DNA from: Longimicrobiales bacterium
GTDB lineage: Bacteria > Gemmatimonadota > Gemmatimonadetes > Longimicrobiales > Gaopeijiaceae
Assembly (NCBI GenBank): GCA_028280525.1
Contig: JANQLR010000309.1
Coordinates: 1-43,242, forward strand
DNA: 43,242 nucleotides
Direction: 5' to 3'
Shown here: one piece after another, positions 3,999 through 13,020 of the stretch
How the letters are laid out: each line of letters begins with the position of its first letter
How positions within the stretch are numbered: the stretch's first letter is position 1
Notes under the pieces: generated by a model
Told to the model about the DNA's origin: nothing
Databases searched by the model: none
Seen by the model: the letters and a program-made list of their open reading frames with translations, nothing else
Position numbers and translations under genes: made by a program

Positions 3999-6900
3999 TC
4001 AGCGACGGCTGCGGTTCAGGACGTTGTTCCGCTGCTCGTAGTCGAAGTTGAGGTCCCGGTTGTCGATCAGGGAGACCTCGAAGCGGAAGACCCAGTTGCC
4101 GTTGACCGCCTGCACGAGGTCGAAGTTCGCCCGCCAGCGATGGAGGTCGCGGCTCAGCCGGATCGTGTGATCGTTGAAGCGGCTGTTGGAGAAGTCGTAG
4201 GAGGTGTTCCAGCTCATCTCCCACATCTCGGTGGGCTGGAGCCGAAGCTGTGCTCGCAGCGACGAGCTCTCGGCCGCGCGGTTCATCGAGTACCCCAGGT
4301 TCGCGGACCACTCCCCGATCCCCGAGCTGGAGGAGCGGCGGTTCCCGACCGTCCGGTTTCCGGGGAGCATGGAGGTCTCGTCGGCGCCCGCAAGGCCGAG
4401 CACGTCGTCCTCCAGGAAGTCGCCCTCCTCCTCCTCGAAGAGCTCGTCCTCGTCGCGCTCGTCCTCGTCGCCCTCCCCGCGGCCGGCCAGCCCGAGGAGC
4501 CGGAAGATCGAGGACCGGTTGGAGAGCTGGAAGTTGAGGTTGAGCCGCGCGAGTCGCGGGGAGAAGCGGCGCTCCGTCTGGGCGGGGTCGTCGCCAACCT
4601 GCACGTCCTCGAAAAGGTCGTGCGCCATCTGGATCTGCAGTCCGCGCAGAAAGTCGGAGGAGATCGTGTTGTCGAGCGTCGTCGTGGTGAAGCCGTCGAT
4701 GAAGGAGCGCGGCAGAGAGTCCGGGTTCACGAAGTCGTAGGTAAGCGCCCGGGTATTGACCGAGAGGAGGTTGACGACCTCGCCCTGCTCGAGCCGACGC
4801 GGCTCGTCCGGGTCGACCGGGTCCGCTGCCGCCGCGTCGACCGAGTCGGCGAGCGCCGCGACATCCACGCTCCCCGCCTCCCCCAGCGCCGGGTCGGGAT
4901 CGTCGCCGGCCCCGGCCTCCGCATCCGGCCCCGGTGGCCGCCGCTTCGCCTCGAAGGTCTGGTTGAGCCCGACGGTCAGCACGTTGCGGGGCTGGAGGTT
5001 GCGAGAGCCAAAGACCTGCTCCTGCAGCTCGTTCGGTTCGATCTCCGGAGACCAGTCGTAGCTCATGCTGGGGGTGATCTTGTGGCGGACGCGCTCGTAG
5101 CCGCCGAAGCCGGGGAAGAAGCCGAAGAGGTCTGCGTTGAGCTGCGCACCGAAGGAGAGCTGGCTCGGGGCCGCCACGAACGACTGCGCATTCTCGATGG
5201 TGTTCGAACGGCGCTGCCTGCCCGAGAACTGGATGCGCGGGGTAAAGGTCGTGGTCCCGATCAGTCGCTTCTGGTAGTTGAGTGACCCGGACCACCGGAT
5301 GTTCTCCTGCCGCGTGTCGACGATCCGTACCGAGTCCTCCTCCAGACCCAGGTGACGCGCCCACGCCGGAGTCCAGAAGGCGGCGAGCCCCTGCTCCGCC
5401 ACATCTCCGGCGAAGAAGGCGGCGCTGTCGAGCGCCACGTCGAACGCGTCGGACCGTTCGTAATTCACGTTCCCGGTTAGCTGCAGGTTCCCGAGGTTCA
5501 GCGACGAGTTGACCCCGAGCCGCATGTTCCCGGTGTTGTTTCGGGTCGAATCCAGCCCGAAGTCCGAGGTCGTCAGCTGAAGCCTCGTCGACCCCGCCAG
5601 CGTCATGTTGTTGTACCACCGCGCCTGCGAGGCCGGTGCGGGGAGTAGGGTGACCGTGGCGACGGAGAGACTCCCGTTCGGGAGCGTCTGCTCGACGCGG
5701 TCGTCGTTGAGGAACTGACGCCGGTTCGCCGAAAGCTGGAGGTTCCCCCAGTCGAAGCGGTGGTTCAGACCCCCCTCGGAGTCGACCGACTGGGTGACCT
5801 CGGCGGGGTTGAAGGAGTTATTGGCGATGAACTCCGACGACGAGGCGAAGCTCATGCGCCCCCGGAAGCTGGTGCGCTCCGAGATCTGCCACTGGTGGCG
5901 AGTGTTCAGCGTCGTCTCCGTCCCGCCGTTGGCGCGCCAGAACTGCCGGAAGTCGAGCGAGCCCTCGAGGAACTGCCGAAGCCAGCGGTAGCGGACCGAT
6001 CCGGTCAGCGCGGTGAAGTTCTCGTCGAACCAGTCGAAGGCGAGCGTCGCGTCCGAGTAGTCGTTGATCGCCCAGTAGTAGCCGACGTTGCTGACCCGCC
6101 GCCGGTAGCCCCCGGAGGAGCGTACGATGTCGTTGACGCTGAAGCGCGGCGCGAGGATCCCGCTCGACCGCTCGGATTGGGTGTTCTGGGCGATGAAGGG
6201 GAGCCAGAAGACGGGGACGTCCGCGAAGTAGAGCCGGACGTTTCGGGCGACGATCGTCCCCCCGCTCGTCCACTTGTACTCCTCGGCCTGGAAGTGGTAG
6301 TGCGGCTCCTCCTCGTCACAGGAGGTGAACATGAGGTGCGAGCCGAAGGTCCGGCCGGCGGAGATCTCCCGCAGATCCCCGCGGATGTTCCACTCCCCGC
6401 CCTCGGTCACGCGGGTCCTCGCGTCCCTCGCTGCGCCGATCTCCGTGTCGGTGTTGAACTTCGCGATCTGCGCGGTGAGCGGCTCACCGGTCGACGGCAC
6501 GATGATCGCCTCGCCCCCGCGGAAGAGGACGTCGCCGCTCTCCTGATCGTAGTCGATCGTGTCCGACTCCATCCGGGTGCCGTCGGACATGAGCGTCTGC
6601 GCCGCCTGCGTGGAGTCGCCCACCAGGAAGAGCCGGGAGCGACGCGCGTCCCAGGTGGCCTCGGTCCCGGCGTACTGCGTGACCTCGTAGCCCTCCAGCT
6701 CGAGGAGGGCGAGCATGATCGAGTCGGCGCCGGGGAGGGTGACCGTCTGCTCCGCCGCGCGGGTGGCGCGGACGGCGAGGCGGGCCGAATCGGCGGAGAT
6801 GTTCGCCGAATCGACGCCCGGAGCGCGGTCGAGGAGCCGAAGCCGCTCGGCGAGACGCTGCTCCACGGTCAGCGTGTCGGCCCCGGCGGCGGCTCCACTC

Positions 6901-7013
6901 CCCCGCGCCTGACCCGCCACCTCGGTCGGGGCTCCCGCCGCGACGCCCAGGACGAGCACGAGGAGCGAAGGGAGGAGGAGACTCGCGCCGAATCGGGGCG
7001 CCCGCCTCCTCAT
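3999..7013 (-). CDS. lptD: LptD-like LPS-assembly outer-membrane protein
   Basis: A 1004-residue protein with a Sec signal peptide (residues about 1-34, ending near GQ). A periplasmic OstA/LptA-like beta-jellyroll follows at about 100-230, with an LptD hallmark segment at about 225-300: SHLMFTSCDEEEPHYHF, then GTIVARNVRLYFADVPVFWLPF and RSSGILAPRFSV, then YYWAINDYSDATLAFDW. The rest looks like a large beta-barrel of alternating polar and aromatic residues. It would insert LPS into the outer leaflet together with LptE. Oddities are two acidic insertions in the barrel (about residues 689-748 and 841-873) and a C-terminus ending in RSRR rather than an aromatic residue. It overlaps tatC by ATGA (7010-7013). 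No other lpt genes are present. Family assignment is strong; exact function in this lineage is inferred. Confidence 0.88.
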   Translation of the reverse strand: MRRRAPRFGASLLLPSLLVLVLGVAAGAPTEVAGQARGSGAAAGADTLTVEQRLAERLRLLDRAPGVDSANISADSARLAVRATRAAEQTVTLPGADSIMLALLELEGYEVTQYAGTEATWDARRSRLFLVGDSTQAAQTLMSDGTRMESDTIDYDQESGDVLFRGGEAIIVPSTGEPLTAQIAKFNTDTEIGAARDARTRVTEGGEWNIRGDLREISAGRTFGSHLMFTSCDEEEPHYHFQAEEYKWTSGGTIVARNVRLYFADVPVFWLPFIAQNTQSERSSGILAPRFSVNDIVRSSGGYRRRVSNVGYYWAINDYSDATLAFDWFDENFTALTGSVRYRWLRQFLEGSLDFRQFWRANGGTETTLNTRHQWQISERTSFRGRMSFASSSEFIANNSFNPAEVTQSVDSEGGLNHRFDWGNLQLSANRRQFLNDDRVEQTLPNGSLSVATVTLLPAPASQARWYNNMTLAGSTRLQLTTSDFGLDSTRNNTGNMRLGVNSSLNLGNLQLTGNVNYERSDAFDVALDSAAFFAGDVAEQGLAAFWTPAWARHLGLEEDSVRIVDTRQENIRWSGSLNYQKRLIGTTTFTPRIQFSGRQRRSNTIENAQSFVAAPSQLSFGAQLNADLFGFFPGFGGYERVRHKITPSMSYDWSPEIEPNELQEQVFGSRNLQPRNVLTVGLNQTFEAKRRPPGPDAEAGAGDDPDPALGEAGSVDVAALADSVDAAAADPVDPDEPRRLEQGEVVNLLSVNTRALTYDFVNPDSLPRSFIDGFTTTTLDNTISSDFLRGLQIQMAHDLFEDVQVGDDPAQTERRFSPRLARLNLNFQLSNRSSIFRLLGLAGRGEGDEDERDEDELFEEEEGDFLEDDVLGLAGADETSMLPGNRTVGNRRSSSSGIGEWSANLGYSMNRAAESSSLRAQLRLQPTEMWEMSWNTSYDFSNSRFNDHTIRLSRDLHRWRANFDLVQAVNGNWVFRFEVSLIDNRDLNFDYEQRNNVLNRSRR

Positions 7014-7825
7014 CGGTCCATCTCGACCGACTCCGGCGCCGGGCCGGGCGGCTGGATCGTGTGCTCTTCTTCCTCCTCCTGCGCGCGGCCCTTGTCGCGC
7101 CAGACGAGGACGGAGAGGAGGATCGAGAACTCGTAGAGGAAGACGAGCGGGACCATCATCAGGACAGTGACCATGATGAGGTCACCCGGGGAGAGGAGAC
7201 TCGCCAGGATGGTGATGACGACGATGGCGTGGCGCCGCTTCGTCCGCAGGAAGTTCGGGGTGACGATCCCGAAGGCGGAGAGAATGAGGACGACGATCGG
7301 GAGTTCGAAGAGGAGCCCGAAGCCGAGGAGGAGGCGGGTGACGAAGGAGAGGTACTCCCCCGCCGTGTAGGCGGCCTCGAGGTACTCCACCTGAATCCCC
7401 GCGAGGAAGCGCAGGGTGACCGGAAGCGCGTACTCGTAGGCGCCCCACACGCCGGCGGCGAAGAAGCCGACCCCGCCGTAGAGCGCCGGGACGATGATGT
7501 TGCGCTCCCGCTTCTCGAGGGCCGGCGACAGGAAGGCCCAGATCTGCCAGAGGATCACCGGGAAGCCGAGGATGAGACCGCCCAGCAGGGTGAAGCGCAG
7601 GATGAAGAAGAAGGATCCGGTCGGCCCCAGGATGAGGAGCTTGTCCGTCTCCAGAATGTCGATCGCCGGCTCGATAAGGAGACTGATCAGCTCGAAGCGG
7701 ACGATCAGCCAGTACGAGATCCCGGAGGCGACGATGAGTGCCGCGATCGACTTGAAGATCCGCCAGCGCAGCTCCTCGAGGTGATCGAGGAAGGGCATCT
7801 CGCCCCGGGAGGGCACCTTCGACAT
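7010..7825 (-). CDS. tatC: Twin-arginine translocase subunit TatC
   Basis: 271 residues, normal TatC length. It begins with the conserved cytoplasmic motif MPFLDHLEELRWRIFKS (residues 10-26), which helps bind twin-arginine signal peptides. About six membrane helices follow, including the family pattern PTGSFFFILRFTLLGGLILGFPVILWQIWAFLSPAL and, later, ASLLSPGD before the last helices. The C-terminal tail is acidic (EEEEEH). TatC is the receptor of the Tat pathway for exporting folded proteins across the inner membrane. tatA/tatB are not in the window. Its stop overlaps the lptD start (ATGA). The start codon directly abuts the left end of the inverted-repeat element at 7827-8093, so its upstream signals must come from inside that element or from nrdR read-through. 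Confidence 0.96.
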   Translation of the reverse strand: MSKVPSRGEMPFLDHLEELRWRIFKSIAALIVASGISYWLIVRFELISLLIEPAIDILETDKLLILGPTGSFFFILRFTLLGGLILGFPVILWQIWAFLSPALEKRERNIIVPALYGGVGFFAAGVWGAYEYALPVTLRFLAGIQVEYLEAAYTAGEYLSFVTRLLLGFGLLFELPIVVLILSAFGIVTPNFLRTKRRHAIVVITILASLLSPGDLIMVTVLMMVPLVFLYEFSILLSVLVWRDKGRAQEEEEEHTIQPPGPAPESVEMDR

Positions 7826-7826
7826 C

Positions 7827-8093
7827 AGGGCCTGTTCACACTGCGGGGAGCACCGCTGCCGAGGCCGTTTCGTCGGCTGGCCAGGAAGCGCGAGCGATGC
7901 GTAGCACCGCTACGTGACCGAGCGATGACGCCGCCAGCCGGCGAAACGGCCCGGCCCGGGAGGGGGGCGGCTGAGATCGCGCCCCTCTGCGTTGCCCGTC
8001 GCTCATTTGACGCTGCCAAACTTCGCTCCTCCCGTCTGGACGGGCACGATTTCCGCCGCAACAGCGGTGATCCCCACAATGTGAACAGGCCCT
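7827..8093. mobile_element. MITE-like inverted-repeat element between nrdR and tatC
   Basis: A 267-bp element bounded by 35-bp terminal inverted repeats at 7827-7861 and 8059-8093 (30 of 35 positions match; outermost arm AGGGCCTGTTCACA). Inside lies a second inverted repeat, 7863-7881 against 7933-7951 (18 of 19 match, core GGCCGTTTCG). At its centre is a small hairpin, CGTAGC-ACC-GCTACG, at 7900-7914, flanked by a direct repeat CGAGCGATG. No transposase is encoded. The structure is that of a non-autonomous transposable element or large structured RNA repeat; the family is not determined. I see no clear target-site duplication. The right end overlaps the nrdR stop codon and the left end abuts the tatC start, so it fills the whole gap. 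An open frame on the minus strand runs through it but looks like a by-product of GC-rich sequence. Confidence 0.8.
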
Positions 8094-8598
8094 AGGACGA
8101 CGGCAGGGTCAGCTCGACCTGGTTCAGGGCCTGGACTTCCTGGCGCTGCCGGTGGTCGAGTTCGGCGACGAACTCCTGGAACTCACCGGCGTCCTGGAAA
8201 TTCCGGTACACGGAGGCGTAGCGGACGTAGGCGACGCGATCGAGCGGACGGAGGGCGTCCATGACCATCTCACCGACCTTCCCGCTCTCGATCTCGACCC
8301 CCGCCTGCCTCGAGAGTGCGTCCTCGATCGCCTCGATCATGCTCTCCATCGCCGAGGCGGAGACGGGGCGCTTGGCACACGCCACCCGGATCGAGTTCAG
8401 GAGCTTCTTGCGGTCGAATTCCTGCGTGGAACCATCCCGCTTGAGGATCTGGATCGGCCGCTCCTCGATGTACTCGTACGTCGTGAAGCGGGAGTCGCAG
8501 ACGAGGCACTCCCGGCGCCGGCGCACGGCGCGGCCGCCACGGCTGGTCCGGGTGTCGACGACCTTGTTTTCGGTCGCGTCACATTCTGGGCATCGCAT
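8092..8598 (-). CDS. nrdR: Transcriptional repressor NrdR
   Basis: 168 residues. The N-terminal zinc ribbon has Cys3/Cys6 (CPEC) and Cys31/Cys34 (CLVC) with the family core VVDTRTSRGGRAVRRRREC. The ATP-cone domain follows at about 49-139 (ILKRDGSTQEFDRKKLL). NrdR senses (d)ATP and represses ribonucleotide reductase genes; no nrd genes are in the window. A GAGGAG ribosome-binding site 8 nt before the ATG supports the start. The stop TAG at 8092-8094 is shared with the right end of the inverted-repeat element, so the final residues or stop may have been altered by insertion. The tail ELTLPSS is not diagnostic either way. The gene follows cpoB by 38 bp. Confidence 0.96.
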   Translation of the reverse strand: MRCPECDATENKVVDTRTSRGGRAVRRRRECLVCDSRFTTYEYIEERPIQILKRDGSTQEFDRKKLLNSIRVACAKRPVSASAMESMIEAIEDALSRQAGVEIESGKVGEMVMDALRPLDRVAYVRYASVYRNFQDAGEFQEFVAELDHRQRQEVQALNQVELTLPSS

Positions 8599-8636
8599 CT
8601 GCGGGTCTCCTCAACTGCCGGCTCTGCGCTGCGGCG

Positions 8637-9464
8637 TCACGCCGACGGACGAAGGCCGCCGAGCTCGTCCAGCCGGTCCTGCGCGAGCGGGGTCACCGAC
8701 GCATCCGGCCAGGTGTTGATGAGACGGCGGAGGACGGAGCGCGCGTTGTCCTCCTCGTCCATCAGCAGGTGGACCAGCGCCGACCGGTAGAGCGCGTCGG
8801 GAACGAGGCGATCCGTCGGAAAGAGCTCCGGGATGCGCTCGAACTCCTCGAGCGCGCCGTCGAGGTCCTCCGACTGCTCGAGGACGTCGGCGAGCTTGAA
8901 GTGCGCCTGCGGGGCGAGCTCGTCGCGCGGGTAGTTCTCGAGGAAGTCGCGGAAGGCGGCCTCCGCCGCGGTCAGCGAGCCCCGGTTGAGGAGGTTGATC
9001 GCGGTCGAGTAGGCGCGGTCCGCCTGCTCCCCGTAGTTCGCGGTGCCAGCCGTGGCGCCGAGGTCGGCACCCACCGGCTCTCCGCCCGGTCCGTTCCCCG
9101 CGCGCGGCGCGCCCCCCGCCGTGCGCCGCAGCTGATCCATCGCGTCGCGCATCGCCTGGATGGCGACCGAGTTCTGGCCGACGAGCTCCGTCAGGCGGTC
9201 GAGCTGCTCCGACATCGTGTTGAGCTGACGGACGACGTCGCCCCGAATGTCGAAGAGCTCCTCGGTGGTGCTGCGCAGCGTATCCTGCGTCGCCATCCCC
9301 TGCGCCTGCAGCTCCGCCAGAAGGGCGTCCTGACGGCGCGCGAGATCCTGGATCTCGGTGCCCAGATCCCGCACGTCGCGCTTCGTCGCGCACCCCGTCG
9401 ACACGAGGACGGCGAGAAGGACCGAAGCCCGTCTCGCCGTCCGAACCCACATCCGATTCATCAT
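8637..9464 (-). CDS. cpoB: CpoB/YbgF-like Tol-Pal accessory protein, predicted lipoprotein
   Basis: 275 residues. The N-terminus carries a lipoprotein signal with lipobox STGC (Cys25), unlike E. coli CpoB, which is a soluble periplasmic protein. A coiled coil at about 30-105 (heptad pattern in LARRQDALLAELQAQ) is followed by a Gly/Ala/Pro linker. TPR repeats occupy about 140-262, beginning at GEQADRAYSTAINLLNRGSL and with AAFRDFLENYPRDELAPQAHF, the classic YbgF pattern. CpoB couples Tol-Pal constriction of the outer membrane to peptidoglycan synthesis during division. It follows pal by 52 bp and precedes nrdR. Adjacent ATG codons at 9464 and 9461 are both possible starts. No Shine-Dalgarno sequence is seen and a strong hairpin ends 15 nt upstream. 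Confidence 0.9.
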   Translation of the reverse strand: MMNRMWVRTARRASVLLAVLVSTGCATKRDVRDLGTEIQDLARRQDALLAELQAQGMATQDTLRSTTEELFDIRGDVVRQLNTMSEQLDRLTELVGQNSVAIQAMRDAMDQLRRTAGGAPRAGNGPGGEPVGADLGATAGTANYGEQADRAYSTAINLLNRGSLTAAEAAFRDFLENYPRDELAPQAHFKLADVLEQSEDLDGALEEFERIPELFPTDRLVPDALYRSALVHLLMDEEDNARSVLRRLINTWPDASVTPLAQDRLDELGGLRPSA

Positions 9465-9479
9465 AGTGAAGGTGTACCG

Positions 9480-9510
9480 GCCCTCCCGCGAAATGGATCC
9501 GCGGGAGGGC
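9480..9510 (-). terminator. 11-bp-stem hairpin between pal and cpoB
   Basis: GCCCTCCCGCG pairs perfectly with CGCGGGAGGGC around a 9-nt loop (9491-9499). It begins 6 nt after the pal stop and ends 15 nt before the cpoB ATG. There is no T-tract, so it may be a Rho-independent-like attenuator, an mRNA-stability hairpin protecting the pal transcript, or a structure limiting access to the cpoB start. The symmetry is seen directly; the role is inferred. Confidence 0.6.
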
Positions 9511-9516
9511 GGTCCA

Positions 9517-10119
9517 TCACATCCCCGGGTTGATCTGGTTGGCTCCCGCCGTGATCACGAACTCGGCGCGGCGGTTGCGGGCCCACGCCGACTCGCTGCT
9601 CGCCGGGTTGAGCGGGCGCTCCTCGCCGTACGAACGGATCTGGAAGCGGCCCTCGTCGAGCCCGAAGCTCACGAAGAAGGCGCGGACCGCCTCGGCGCGG
9701 CGGTTTCCGAGCGCGATGTTGTACTCGGTCGAGCCGCGCTCGTCGGCATGCCCGTCGATGCGCATCATCACCTGCGGCGAGTTGCGGAGGATGTCGAGCT
9801 TGCTCCGCAGCACGCGCTCGGCCTCGGCAGTCAGCGTCGACTCGTCGTATCCGAAGAAGATCATCTCCTCGAGCGTCGTCCGGGCCGCGGCCATCCGCTG
9901 CTCCATCGCCCGGCGCTCCCGCTCGGCCTCGGCCTCGGCGGCGCGGCGCTCGCGCTCGGCCGCGGCCTCCGCGGCGCGGATCGAATCGGCACGGCGCTGA
10001 GCGGCGATCTCCTCGGCCGTCGGGCCGGCCGGCTCGACGGGCGGGGGCGGATCCTTGCTGCAGGCCGCGGCGAAGACGGCGAGGGCGAGGACGGGGACGA
10101 GGATGCGGCGGTGCGTCAT
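9517..10119 (-). CDS. pal: Peptidoglycan-associated lipoprotein Pal
   Basis: 200 residues from the ATG at 10119. This start was chosen over an upstream in-frame extension because it places a proper lipoprotein signal at the N-terminus (lipobox AAAC, Cys20). After the anchor comes a charged Ala/Glu/Arg-rich segment (about 35-80), probably helical. The OmpA-like peptidoglycan-binding domain covers about 85-197, with the Pal signature DGHADERGSTEYNIALGNRRA. Pal links the outer membrane to the cell wall and binds TolB and TolA. The gene lies 147 bp downstream of tolB with a promoter-like sequence in the gap, so it may have its own transcription start in addition to read-through. Confidence 0.95.
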   Translation of the reverse strand: MTHRRILVPVLALAVFAAACSKDPPPPVEPAGPTAEEIAAQRRADSIRAAEAAAERERRAAEAEAERERRAMEQRMAAARTTLEEMIFFGYDESTLTAEAERVLRSKLDILRNSPQVMMRIDGHADERGSTEYNIALGNRRAEAVRAFFVSFGLDEGRFQIRSYGEERPLNPASSESAWARNRRAEFVITAGANQINPGM

Positions 10120-10160
10120 GCGAGTGTCCGGTAGAATGGAGAGGGTCCCAAAACCCCTGA

Positions 10161-10189
10161 GCAATACCCCAAAATGCTCCGTTTGGCAA
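10161..10189 (-). promoter_or_regulatory. Candidate sigma70-type promoter for pal-cpoB
   Basis: On the minus strand, TTGCCA (10184-10189) and TATTGC (10161-10166) are separated by 17 bp, in a locally AT-richer part of the tolB-pal gap, about 42 nt upstream of the pal ATG. The -35 is good and the -10 weak; assigned by eye only. Confidence 0.35.
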
Positions 10190-10266
10190 CGCTTTCGCGA
10201 CCGTTTCGGGGCGCACGAATGCGGAAGTCTGCGGCGGCCGTCCGCACGGCCCGGAGAGCGGCCCAC

Positions 10267-11709
10267 CTACATCGAGGGCGACCAGTCGGGCTCGCCGACC
10301 TCGAAGCCCCTCAGGAGCGCCCGGGTACGGCCCGAGGCCGCGTCGACGACGAAGAGCCCGCTCCCCCAGTCACGACGCCCGAAGAAGACGATGTGGCGCC
10401 CATCCGGCGCCCACGCCGGGTCCTCGTTGTTCCCCTCGGCGGTGAGCTGCGTCAGGCGGCGGCCCTCCCCCATCCGCGCGACCAGGATGTTGAAGAACCC
10501 GGCCCGAGACACCCGGCCCGAGAAGGCGATGTTGTCGCCGAAGGGCGCCCAGTCGGGGGCGGTGAAGAAGGAGTTCTGGCTCCCGTAGCGGTACGGTGAG
10601 AGGAGCTCGGGCTGCCCGCCCCCCGCGTCGAGGGTGTAGATCTGCGGGATCGCGCTCCCGAGACGGGTCGAGGAGAAGACGAGCTGCCGTCCGTCCGGGG
10701 AGTACGACGGATTCGTGTCGCTGAAGCGGCCCCCGGTGAGGTTGGTCAGGCAGCACTGATCCTCGAGATCCCAGGTGTAGAGCCCGGAGGTCGCACCCTC
10801 GTGGATCGTGAAGGCGAGTCGCCGTCCGTCCGGAAGGTACTCGGGCGTCATGTACTCGCCGACGCGCGGCTCGATGCGGCTGGACTCGCCGCTCCCCAGC
10901 TCGTGCTCGAAGATGCGCCAGCCGTCGTCGGTCATCGCGGTGTAGGCGATCCGGCCCCCGTCGGGCGACCACGCCGGCGAGAGAGCGAGATCCCGGTGAT
11001 CCGAGATGCGCGTGAGGTTCGCCCCGTCCGCATCGATCACGTAGATCTCCTTCGTCCCGTCGTCCCGCTGCATCGAGAAGGCGATGCGCGAGGCGGCCAT
11101 CCCCGGCTCCCCGAAGACCCACTCGACCACCTGGTCCGAGGCGCGGTGGACGGCCATGCGGAAGCCGCGGTCATTCGGATCAGGAACGCGGAAGGTCCCC
11201 TCGTGCGCGACCTGCCGGTACAGGACGTCGTGCACGCGGAGGATGAGGACGAAGCCGTTCCCGCTCCCCTCCACCGTGCCGGTCAGGAGGTAGACGGCGC
11301 CGAGCCGGTCCCAGAGGGCGTAGTCGATGTCGCGGACGCCACCGAGCGACTCCGGCAGCTCCGACAGGATCCGGAAACGGTCGGAGAAGTCGAGGTCGTT
11401 CGCAAGGATGCTCTCGACCTGGGAGGCCGCGCCCTCCCCGCCGAAGCGCCCGGAGAAGGGCCGGATCGCGAGCTCGGGGACGTACGCGCCCTCGTAGACC
11501 ATCCCGAGGCGGACGCCGGGGACCCGGGTGTCGACGTCCTGCGCCGCGGCAGGGGTGGCGAGGACGGCGGCAGCGACGAGCGCGGAGCCGGCGGCTGCGA
11601 GGAGGGGTCCGGCGACGGAGCGCTGTCCCGCAGCGATGACACGGGATGCCCGGCTAGGGGGTCGTCGGGTGCGGAGGTCGACGGTTTCGAGGGCGCGGGC
11701 GATCGGCAT
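10267..11709 (-). CDS. tolB: Tol-Pal system beta-propeller protein TolB
   Basis: 480 residues from the ATG at 11709. The open frame continues upstream antisense-free into other sequence, but this Met is the nearest that leaves a signal peptide (hydrophobic stretch LLAAAGSALVAAAVLATPAAAQ, about residues 37-58). An N-terminal TolB domain (PELAIRPFSG...ILANDLDFSDRFRIL) is followed by a WD40-like propeller with repeated blades of the type SPDGGRIAYTA, LPDGRRLAFT, SPDGRQLVFSS and APDGRHIVFFG. TolB is periplasmic and binds Pal and TolA. It lies 80 bp after the tolA-like gene. The roughly 30-residue basic leader before the hydrophobic core is long, so the true start may be an unseen alternative codon. 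Family assignment is certain. Confidence 0.93.
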   Translation of the reverse strand: MPIARALETVDLRTRRPPSRASRVIAAGQRSVAGPLLAAAGSALVAAAVLATPAAAQDVDTRVPGVRLGMVYEGAYVPELAIRPFSGRFGGEGAASQVESILANDLDFSDRFRILSELPESLGGVRDIDYALWDRLGAVYLLTGTVEGSGNGFVLILRVHDVLYRQVAHEGTFRVPDPNDRGFRMAVHRASDQVVEWVFGEPGMAASRIAFSMQRDDGTKEIYVIDADGANLTRISDHRDLALSPAWSPDGGRIAYTAMTDDGWRIFEHELGSGESSRIEPRVGEYMTPEYLPDGRRLAFTIHEGATSGLYTWDLEDQCCLTNLTGGRFSDTNPSYSPDGRQLVFSSTRLGSAIPQIYTLDAGGGQPELLSPYRYGSQNSFFTAPDWAPFGDNIAFSGRVSRAGFFNILVARMGEGRRLTQLTAEGNNEDPAWAPDGRHIVFFGRRDWGSGLFVVDAASGRTRALLRGFEVGEPDWSPSM

Positions 11710-11789
11710 GTCGTCGGTCGAAGGGGTGGTGCGCGCTCGGGCGCGGCGATCTGTGGAGGTGCGTCCGTCCGGTTCGACGGAGGCGCGGA

Positions 11790-12587
11790 TCAGCGGGTTG
11801 CACGATCCGGGCCGTTTCCGACCCTGAACTCGAAGAGTACCGGAAGCCCCTCGTACGGGTAGTCCTCCGGAAGCGGCCCGAAGAGTGCATTCCGACCGGC
11901 GCAGTCGGCGACCGCGGCGATCGACCCGAAGTCCAGATCCGGGTTCCCCGACCGTTCGTACAGCCGCTCGCCCGTGGTGGTCCCGTCGCGGCGGATCTCG
12001 AAGTAGACGGTCGTCTGCGAGCCCCGGCGAGCCGAGCCGGGCGGGCGGAAGCAGCGCCGCAGCTGGCGGACGATGTTCTCGTAGTAGCGCGGGTAGTCGC
12101 GCTGCAGTCCCTCGATGCGGACCTCGAGTTCCTCGCCGGCGAGATCCGTGGGGTCGTCGTCGGGCTCCGGCGTCGCGGCGACCTCCTCGACCGGCTCCGG
12201 GTCCGGATCGGGGGGCGGCGCCTCTTCCTCGTCCTCCTCCTCGGGCTCCGGTTCCTCCTCCTCCGGCTCGTCCGCGACGGTCTCGACGACCTCCTCGACC
12301 ACGGGAGGCGGCGTCTCCTCGACGACCGGGTCGGGCTCGGGAAGGGGCGGTTCGGGATCGGGGCGCTCGACGACGAGTTCCTTGGTGGGGGTGACCACCT
12401 CTTCGCTCAACGGCTCGGGTGAGGGCGCCTGCACGATCTGGATCTCGATCGACTGGAATTCGATCGGCGCGGGGCGCGTGAGCGAGAGGAGGACGGTCGC
12501 GACGACCACCCCGCCGTGGACCGCGAGACTCCCGTAGAGCGAGGCGCGCGGCATCGGCTCCCGGTGATGACGGGGGCGCCACGCCAT
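11790..12587 (-). CDS. tolA: TolA/TonB-like energy-transducing protein with acidic Glu/Pro linker
   Basis: 265 residues from the ATG at 12587, 4 bp past the tolR stop. An N-terminal membrane helix (about residues 17-37, SLYGSLAVHGGVVVATVLLSL) is followed by a long Pro/Glu/Asp-rich linker (about 60-155). The C-terminal domain is TonB/TolA-like (about 165-255, containing YYENIVRQLRRCFRPP and TTVYFEIRRDGTTTGERLYERSG). The position between tolR and tolB indicates a TolA role: transmitting the TolQR proton-driven force across the periplasm to TolB-Pal. The acidic linker differs from the Ala/Lys-rich helical linker of proteobacterial TolA and looks more like a TonB spacer of opposite charge. Two Cys residues (in RRCF and ADCAG) could form a disulfide. 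A TonB function cannot be ruled out from sequence alone. Confidence 0.85.
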   Translation of the reverse strand: MAWRPRHHREPMPRASLYGSLAVHGGVVVATVLLSLTRPAPIEFQSIEIQIVQAPSPEPLSEEVVTPTKELVVERPDPEPPLPEPDPVVEETPPPVVEEVVETVADEPEEEEPEPEEEDEEEAPPPDPDPEPVEEVAATPEPDDDPTDLAGEELEVRIEGLQRDYPRYYENIVRQLRRCFRPPGSARRGSQTTVYFEIRRDGTTTGERLYERSGNPDLDFGSIAAVADCAGRNALFGPLPEDYPYEGLPVLFEFRVGNGPDRATR

Positions 12588-12591
12588 GGGG

Positions 12592-13020
12592 TCAGCCGTC
12601 CTCCCGCCCGCCCGTCTCCGGTGCGGCGACGAGGGCGAAGTCGACGCCGGCCTGCGAGAGGGTGGCAACGACCTGCATGAAGCGCCCGTAGGAGACGGTC
12701 GAGTCGGCCCGGAAGTAGACGTGCTCGAACTCCCCGACCTCGGCGAGCTGCGCGAAGCTCTCCTCGAACTCCTCGATGGTAAAGGGCGCTTCCTGCAGGA
12801 AGACCCGCCCGTCGGCGACCAGGTCGACGAAGACCGGGTCGTCGGCCTGCGTGATCGGCGGCACGTCCGCCTCCGGGACGGCCACCTCCACCCCGCCCTG
12901 CAGCACCGGGGCGGCGATGATGAAGATCACGAGGAGGGTGAAGGCGACATCGACGAGCGAGGTGATGTTCACCTCGGCGCTCGGCGGAAGGACGTCGCGG
13001 CCGCGGCTCTTCCGCGGCAT
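12592..13020 (-). CDS. tolR: Biopolymer transport protein TolR/ExbD family
   Basis: 142 residues. A single N-terminal membrane helix at about 18-40 carries the essential proton-path Asp at position 24 in SLVDVAFTLLVIFIIAAPVL. The periplasmic ExbD/TolR domain follows (VFVDLVADGRVFL...VYFRADSTVSYGRFMQVVATL). With TolQ it forms the stator that converts the proton gradient into force on TolA. Its ATG overlaps the tolQ stop by one base (TGATG). TolR is chosen over ExbD on gene context. Confidence 0.93.
   Translation of the reverse strand: MPRKSRGRDVLPPSAEVNITSLVDVAFTLLVIFIIAAPVLQGGVEVAVPEADVPPITQADDPVFVDLVADGRVFLQEAPFTIEEFEESFAQLAEVGEFEHVYFRADSTVSYGRFMQVVATLSQAGVDFALVAAPETGGREDG

Follow-up and report, generated by a model that had tools for sequence, protein, structure and literature searches.

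A probable IS5-type MITE at the nrdR stop codon of a Longimicrobiales bacterium carries two inverted copies of a conserved hairpin module

The gap between nrdR and tatC in the 43,242-nt stretch of Longimicrobiales DNA analyzed here (the window) is occupied by what we take, with a probability of about 0.85, to be a non-autonomous IS5-type MITE that lies at the nrdR stop codon and carries two inverted copies of a conserved hairpin module of approximately 100 nt. Its identity as a genuine MITE with IS5-type ends has good support. The first-pass annotation had drawn a MITE-like element of 267 bp at 7827-8093; the MITE stands, but comparison of copies refined its span to 265 bp at 7828-8092 (GGGCC...GGCCC; ends of the GGGCCTGTTCACAC...GTGTGAACAGGCCC type; no strand), with the outer A and T belonging to the YTAR target and the TA duplication. 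Along the minus strand, nrdR (8092-8598, minus, with an ATP-cone and an NrdR zinc ribbon) is followed by the element and then by tatC (7010-7825, minus), and Pfam agreed with the identification of both neighbors. The minus-strand genes of 3999-13020 encode an LptD-like protein, TatC, NrdR, an OmpA-domain (Pal-like) protein, TolB and a TolR/ExbD protein, which is an ordinary cell-envelope neighborhood.

The repeats that had been read directly from the letters were all reproduced. The 35-bp terminal inverted repeats match at 30 of 35 positions and can be extended to 39 nt at 85%; the left repeat (7828-7858, plus strand) is the foot of the terminal stem and the right one is at 8062-8092 on the minus strand. 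Between them lie hairpin arm 1 (7858-7955, plus) and hairpin arm 2 (7964-8062, minus), which is inverted relative to arm 1, and an inter-arm linker (7950-7966, no strand) that is of the CCCTTCGGG type in other members and degenerate in the window copy. The outer stem of arm 1 is the nested 19-bp inverted repeat 7863-7881/7933-7951 (95% match), and its terminal hairpin is CGTAGC-ACC-GCTACG at 7900-7914, with the direct repeat GAGCGATG on either side, at 7892 and 7920. A covariance model of the arm (R1), built from arms outside the window genus, matched arm 2 at 51.4 bits (E 7e-11), while arm 1 of this copy was too diverged for the model. This was the one significant match in the 43-kb window, a second being at chance level, and the element is thus the only one of its kind there, as had been claimed. 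No transposase gene was found within it, the sole long frame across it running opposite to tatC. The large folded structure that had been anticipated is borne out by comparison with shuffled sequences, both as RNA (z -8.8, with 0 of 200 shuffles as stable) and as DNA (z -8.0), and by the two-arm fold shared across members.

The element is repeated within its own genome, an assembly of 4.1 Mb in 427 contigs, where we counted about 14 copies, five of them full or nearly so and about nine partial; many lie at contig ends, as is expected of repeats. These copies are 78-91% identical to the window copy. A comparison of copies with one another placed the window copy among the most diverged, at 86-91% to the others, and the closest pairs reached 98.3% identity over 121 bp. 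A blastn search of the other genomes of the genus gave about 10 copies in one and none in four. In 18 relatives without the element at this locus, 17-114 nt separate the nrdR stop from the conserved MPFLDHL of TatC, versus 293 nt in the window. The window element had no match in a plasmid collection and a Chromatiales member had none in a phage collection; a Variovorax replicon carries one full-length relative.

Other arrangements of these ends were also seen. Two loci of the window genome (L022:1501-1544 on G000 C74 and L042:1501-1543 on G000 C393) consist of two terminal repeats back to back and nothing else; such palindromes are flanked by CTAG or TA, further cases measure 31-55 bp, and they are apparently mobile or residual minimal elements. 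Four MITEs of genome G002 (L108, L109, L110 and L112; 350, 230, 299 and 381 bp) have GGGCCTGTTCAC-type ends and an unrelated interior, and are absent from the four R1 matches listed for that genome. The left flank CACTACACTA is common to four copies in genome G004 (L114, L116, L118 and L119). It forms the end of a separate inverted-repeat element of approximately 170 bp (CTAGTGTAGTGTCGCC...; L306:268-437), and this suggests nested or tandem insertion at CTAG.

The target of the window element is a TA inside YTAR, at the stop codon of nrdR. Among 83 junction dinucleotides at ends collected without bias, TA was found in 42, CA in 20 and TG in 6. The window copy has CA on the left (7826-7827), where most copies have TA, and TA on the right (8093-8094), so that the target duplication is evident across copies and is not an identical one here. 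A four-base CTAG duplication was also considered and rejected, since in many copies the two sides read CTA/TAA or TTA/TAG, which fits a TA duplication better. The junction changes are skewed, TAGGG to CAGGG being more frequent than TAGGG to TGGGG (CA 20 vs TG 6), and the skew resembles the bias of very-short-patch repair. With a TA target and one transition, the empty junction probably read TCC-TAATG-TCG, with an overlap between the stop of nrdR and the start of tatC.

On the minus strand the right TA and the first base of the element, a G, make up the TAG stop of nrdR, and the suggestion that the element supplies this stop is therefore upheld. Its companion, that the element supplies the upstream signals of tatC, is not: no promoter-like site was found, and in relatives tatC lies directly behind nrdR. 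Insertion at stop codons is not peculiar to this locus. Of 30 clean insertions from other loci, 23 coincide exactly with the stop codon of an ORF at least 100 codons long, versus 79 of 270 control sites (Fisher p 6e-7), the controls being other YTAR sites on the same contigs because controls at any TA were uninformative. The excess may reflect target preference or the survival of harmless insertions; since a target TA and the leading G of the element give TAG, insertions at stop codons should be well tolerated.

IS427-like members of the IS5 family have two overlapping frames and a TA target. The window element has the same terminal repeat and TA/YTAR target as these, but it lacks a transposase, and its hairpin core is missing from those IS copies. 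Its end GGGCCTGTTCAC is also that of complete IS5-family insertion sequences of 813-822 bp, the full-length relatives with a transposase that the first-pass annotation had proposed looking for. The end TAGGGCCTGTTCACRCTACG turned up in no fewer than 117 stretches of genomes belonging to many phyla, and pairs of ends 813-822 bp apart were found at five loci (L143, L157, L165, L224 and L280). Within each of these copies lie two overlapping frames, which are intact in some and degraded in others; most have an A-rich slippery run, and the product of L165 matches DUF4096, DDE_Tnp_1 and the NCBIfam IS5 family (NF033580, PF13340, PF01609). Complete copies occur in the same order as the window genome and also in Nitrospira and Gemmatimonadales. 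They are the likely donors of the transposase. A search for DUF4096-type transposases, run with positive controls, detected none in the six genomes of the window genus that it covered; the window assembly is fragmented, and the helper may have been lost, may be unassembled or may be of another type. The earlier statement that no family could be assigned thus no longer holds for the ends, which are IS5-type, and still holds for the core: no Rfam family matched the element at gathering score, and one sub-threshold miRNA match lies outside it.

TA-target MITEs of bacteria such as Correia and RUP are short, non-coding and multicopy, with terminal inverted repeats and a target duplication, traits that the window element shares with bacterial MITEs in general. 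Such elements are usually regarded as decayed internal deletions whose interiors are lineage-specific. In contrast, the class described here combines a near-constant length with a structured core across phyla and across ends. About half of the distinct elements with paired ends, 27 in number, fall into a sharp length peak of 263-266 bp; they belong to Burkholderiales, Chromatiales, other Gammaproteobacteria, Acidobacteria and the Gemmatimonadota-like lineage of the window. Blastn among these members finds little similarity beyond the ends, except within the window genus and within a Chromatiales/gammaproteobacterial group (about 65% identity). Most of them, taken singly, adopt a common fold of a terminal stem of approximately 30 bp, two arms and a CCCTTCGGG-type linker. 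Over 27 sequences, standard pairs fill 92.6% of the pair cells, versus 69.4% in shuffled and 34-42% in slid alignments, and 60 of 84 pairs show compensatory changes on both sides, with the caveat that template switching also keeps inverted repeats complementary, so that covariation alone is no proof of selection. Counts of G-T versus A-C mismatches did not tell RNA and DNA folds apart, the near-symmetric design weakening the comparison.

When arm 2 is reversed it aligns with arm 1, and the two are inverted copies of one module of approximately 100 nt. Within the genus, R1 matched the window genome 10 times, G004 16 times and two more genomes 4 times and 2 times, and it found nothing in G003 and G005, which lack the element. 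Outside the genus, a Chromatiales genome had 133 matches and Roseateles 29, whereas three genomes to which only the end sequence had led (Gemmatimonadales, Treponema and Caldilineaceae) had none. The window element belongs to a previously unassigned class that spans at least three bacterial phyla and has one paired hairpin core. No published description of the element or its core was found in a search of open-access literature, and a catalogue entry may exist for some members.

The same core is found behind different ends. R1 finds the arm in MITEs of 273-275 bp with GAAGGSTGTTGAAGAA ends, and such ends are present in 43 out of 154 genomes from the order; no helper insertion sequence for this class was found among the loci examined. 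The window's own genome is among the 43, and its locus (L303:199-477; G000 C149:6148-6426) represents a second MITE family there, of about 275 bp, with TAGAAGGCTGTTGAAGAA ends and this core. Other carriers have a single arm, namely elements with GGGTCTGTTGACAT ends, elements with AAGCTGTGAATG ends, a long repeat without a clear duplication, and a repeat of Cupriavidus plasmids, in which the matches are to the core only. The arm is absent from the five IS copies tested with R1. Invariant across six end classes are an A-G, a C-G, a C-A-A-C and one G, mostly in or beside internal loops, and the conserved loop motif of the arm is AGGCG...CAACG. Some of the different end classes have CTGTTnA in common, so that they may be recognized by different IS5-like transposases rather than by unrelated ones. 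Both one-arm and arm-less elements are present, and the core is therefore not strictly required for mobility.

The existence of such versions is in keeping with an ordinary decayed IS5 derivative, in which nothing but the ends would matter, the interior being a long chance palindrome that has no function and is kept complementary by template-switch repair. For many MITEs the terminal repeats alone are sufficient. This explanation has some weight, but we find it doubtful, since members vary so little in length (263-266 bp) and have their loops at the same positions despite having little blastn similarity beyond their ends, the loop bases are invariant in six end classes, and the IS copies lack the core. 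It is unlikely that the element is a conserved structured RNA, regulatory or in a 3' UTR, that spread with MITEs and here controls expression of nrdR and tatC. The fold is strong, and insertion directly after a stop codon would place the element in the 3' UTR; however, 18 relatives lack the element at this locus, so that it is not a conserved regulator of nrdR-tatC, no Rfam family was matched, and neither a terminator nor a promoter was found.

A third reading, to which we give little credence, takes the core to be a single-stranded DNA substrate with its own recombinase, like integron attC sites or REPIN/BIME units, and the IS5-type ends to be secondary. It draws on the conserved unpaired bases of the two inverted hairpins and on the occurrence of the core behind at least five different ends. 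Integron attC sites have the core sites RYYYAAC / GTTRRRY, and these were not seen on inspection of the arm alignments. REPIN/BIME elements have two inverted palindromic units, lie in many cases downstream of coding regions and have proposed RNA roles (PMC3116915, PMC3733652), and their hairpins are of 20-40 bp with a GTAG or CGTC foot (PMC3733652). Set against those descriptions, the class of the window element is similar in its paired inverted palindromic units, in the placement of many members behind coding regions and in having a proposed RNA role, and differs in that the units are approximately 100 nt and lie between DDE-type transposon ends; the arm alignments have neither a conserved GTAG nor a conserved CGTC at the hairpin foot, and in most copies the ends are clearly of the DDE type and flanked by a duplicated TA.

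We prefer an account in which an IS5-family transposase acting in trans would have moved the element onto the nrdR stop, where relatives have a compact junction, and in which the target TA and the first G of the element would have rebuilt the TAG stop. Most likely it is a folded single strand, either transcript or lagging-strand DNA, that is conserved; through the inverted duplication, each strand would have one arm in the correct orientation. The fold may act as a stabilizer or insulator in the 3' UTR, or it may aid transposition. Near-identical length, fold and loop motif in several phyla, together with recurrence behind several ends, suggest that the interior is under constraint, a conclusion that the sequence comparisons support. 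It is possible, and we put it forward tentatively, that the hairpin of approximately 100 nt, with its invariant internal loops, has a function of its own and represents a new class of folded module, either structured RNA or single-stranded DNA, which MITEs with several types of ends carry as inverted pairs across phyla. The rule by which a TA target and a leading G give TAG would offer a simple reason why such elements fill compact operons while leaving the genes unbroken.
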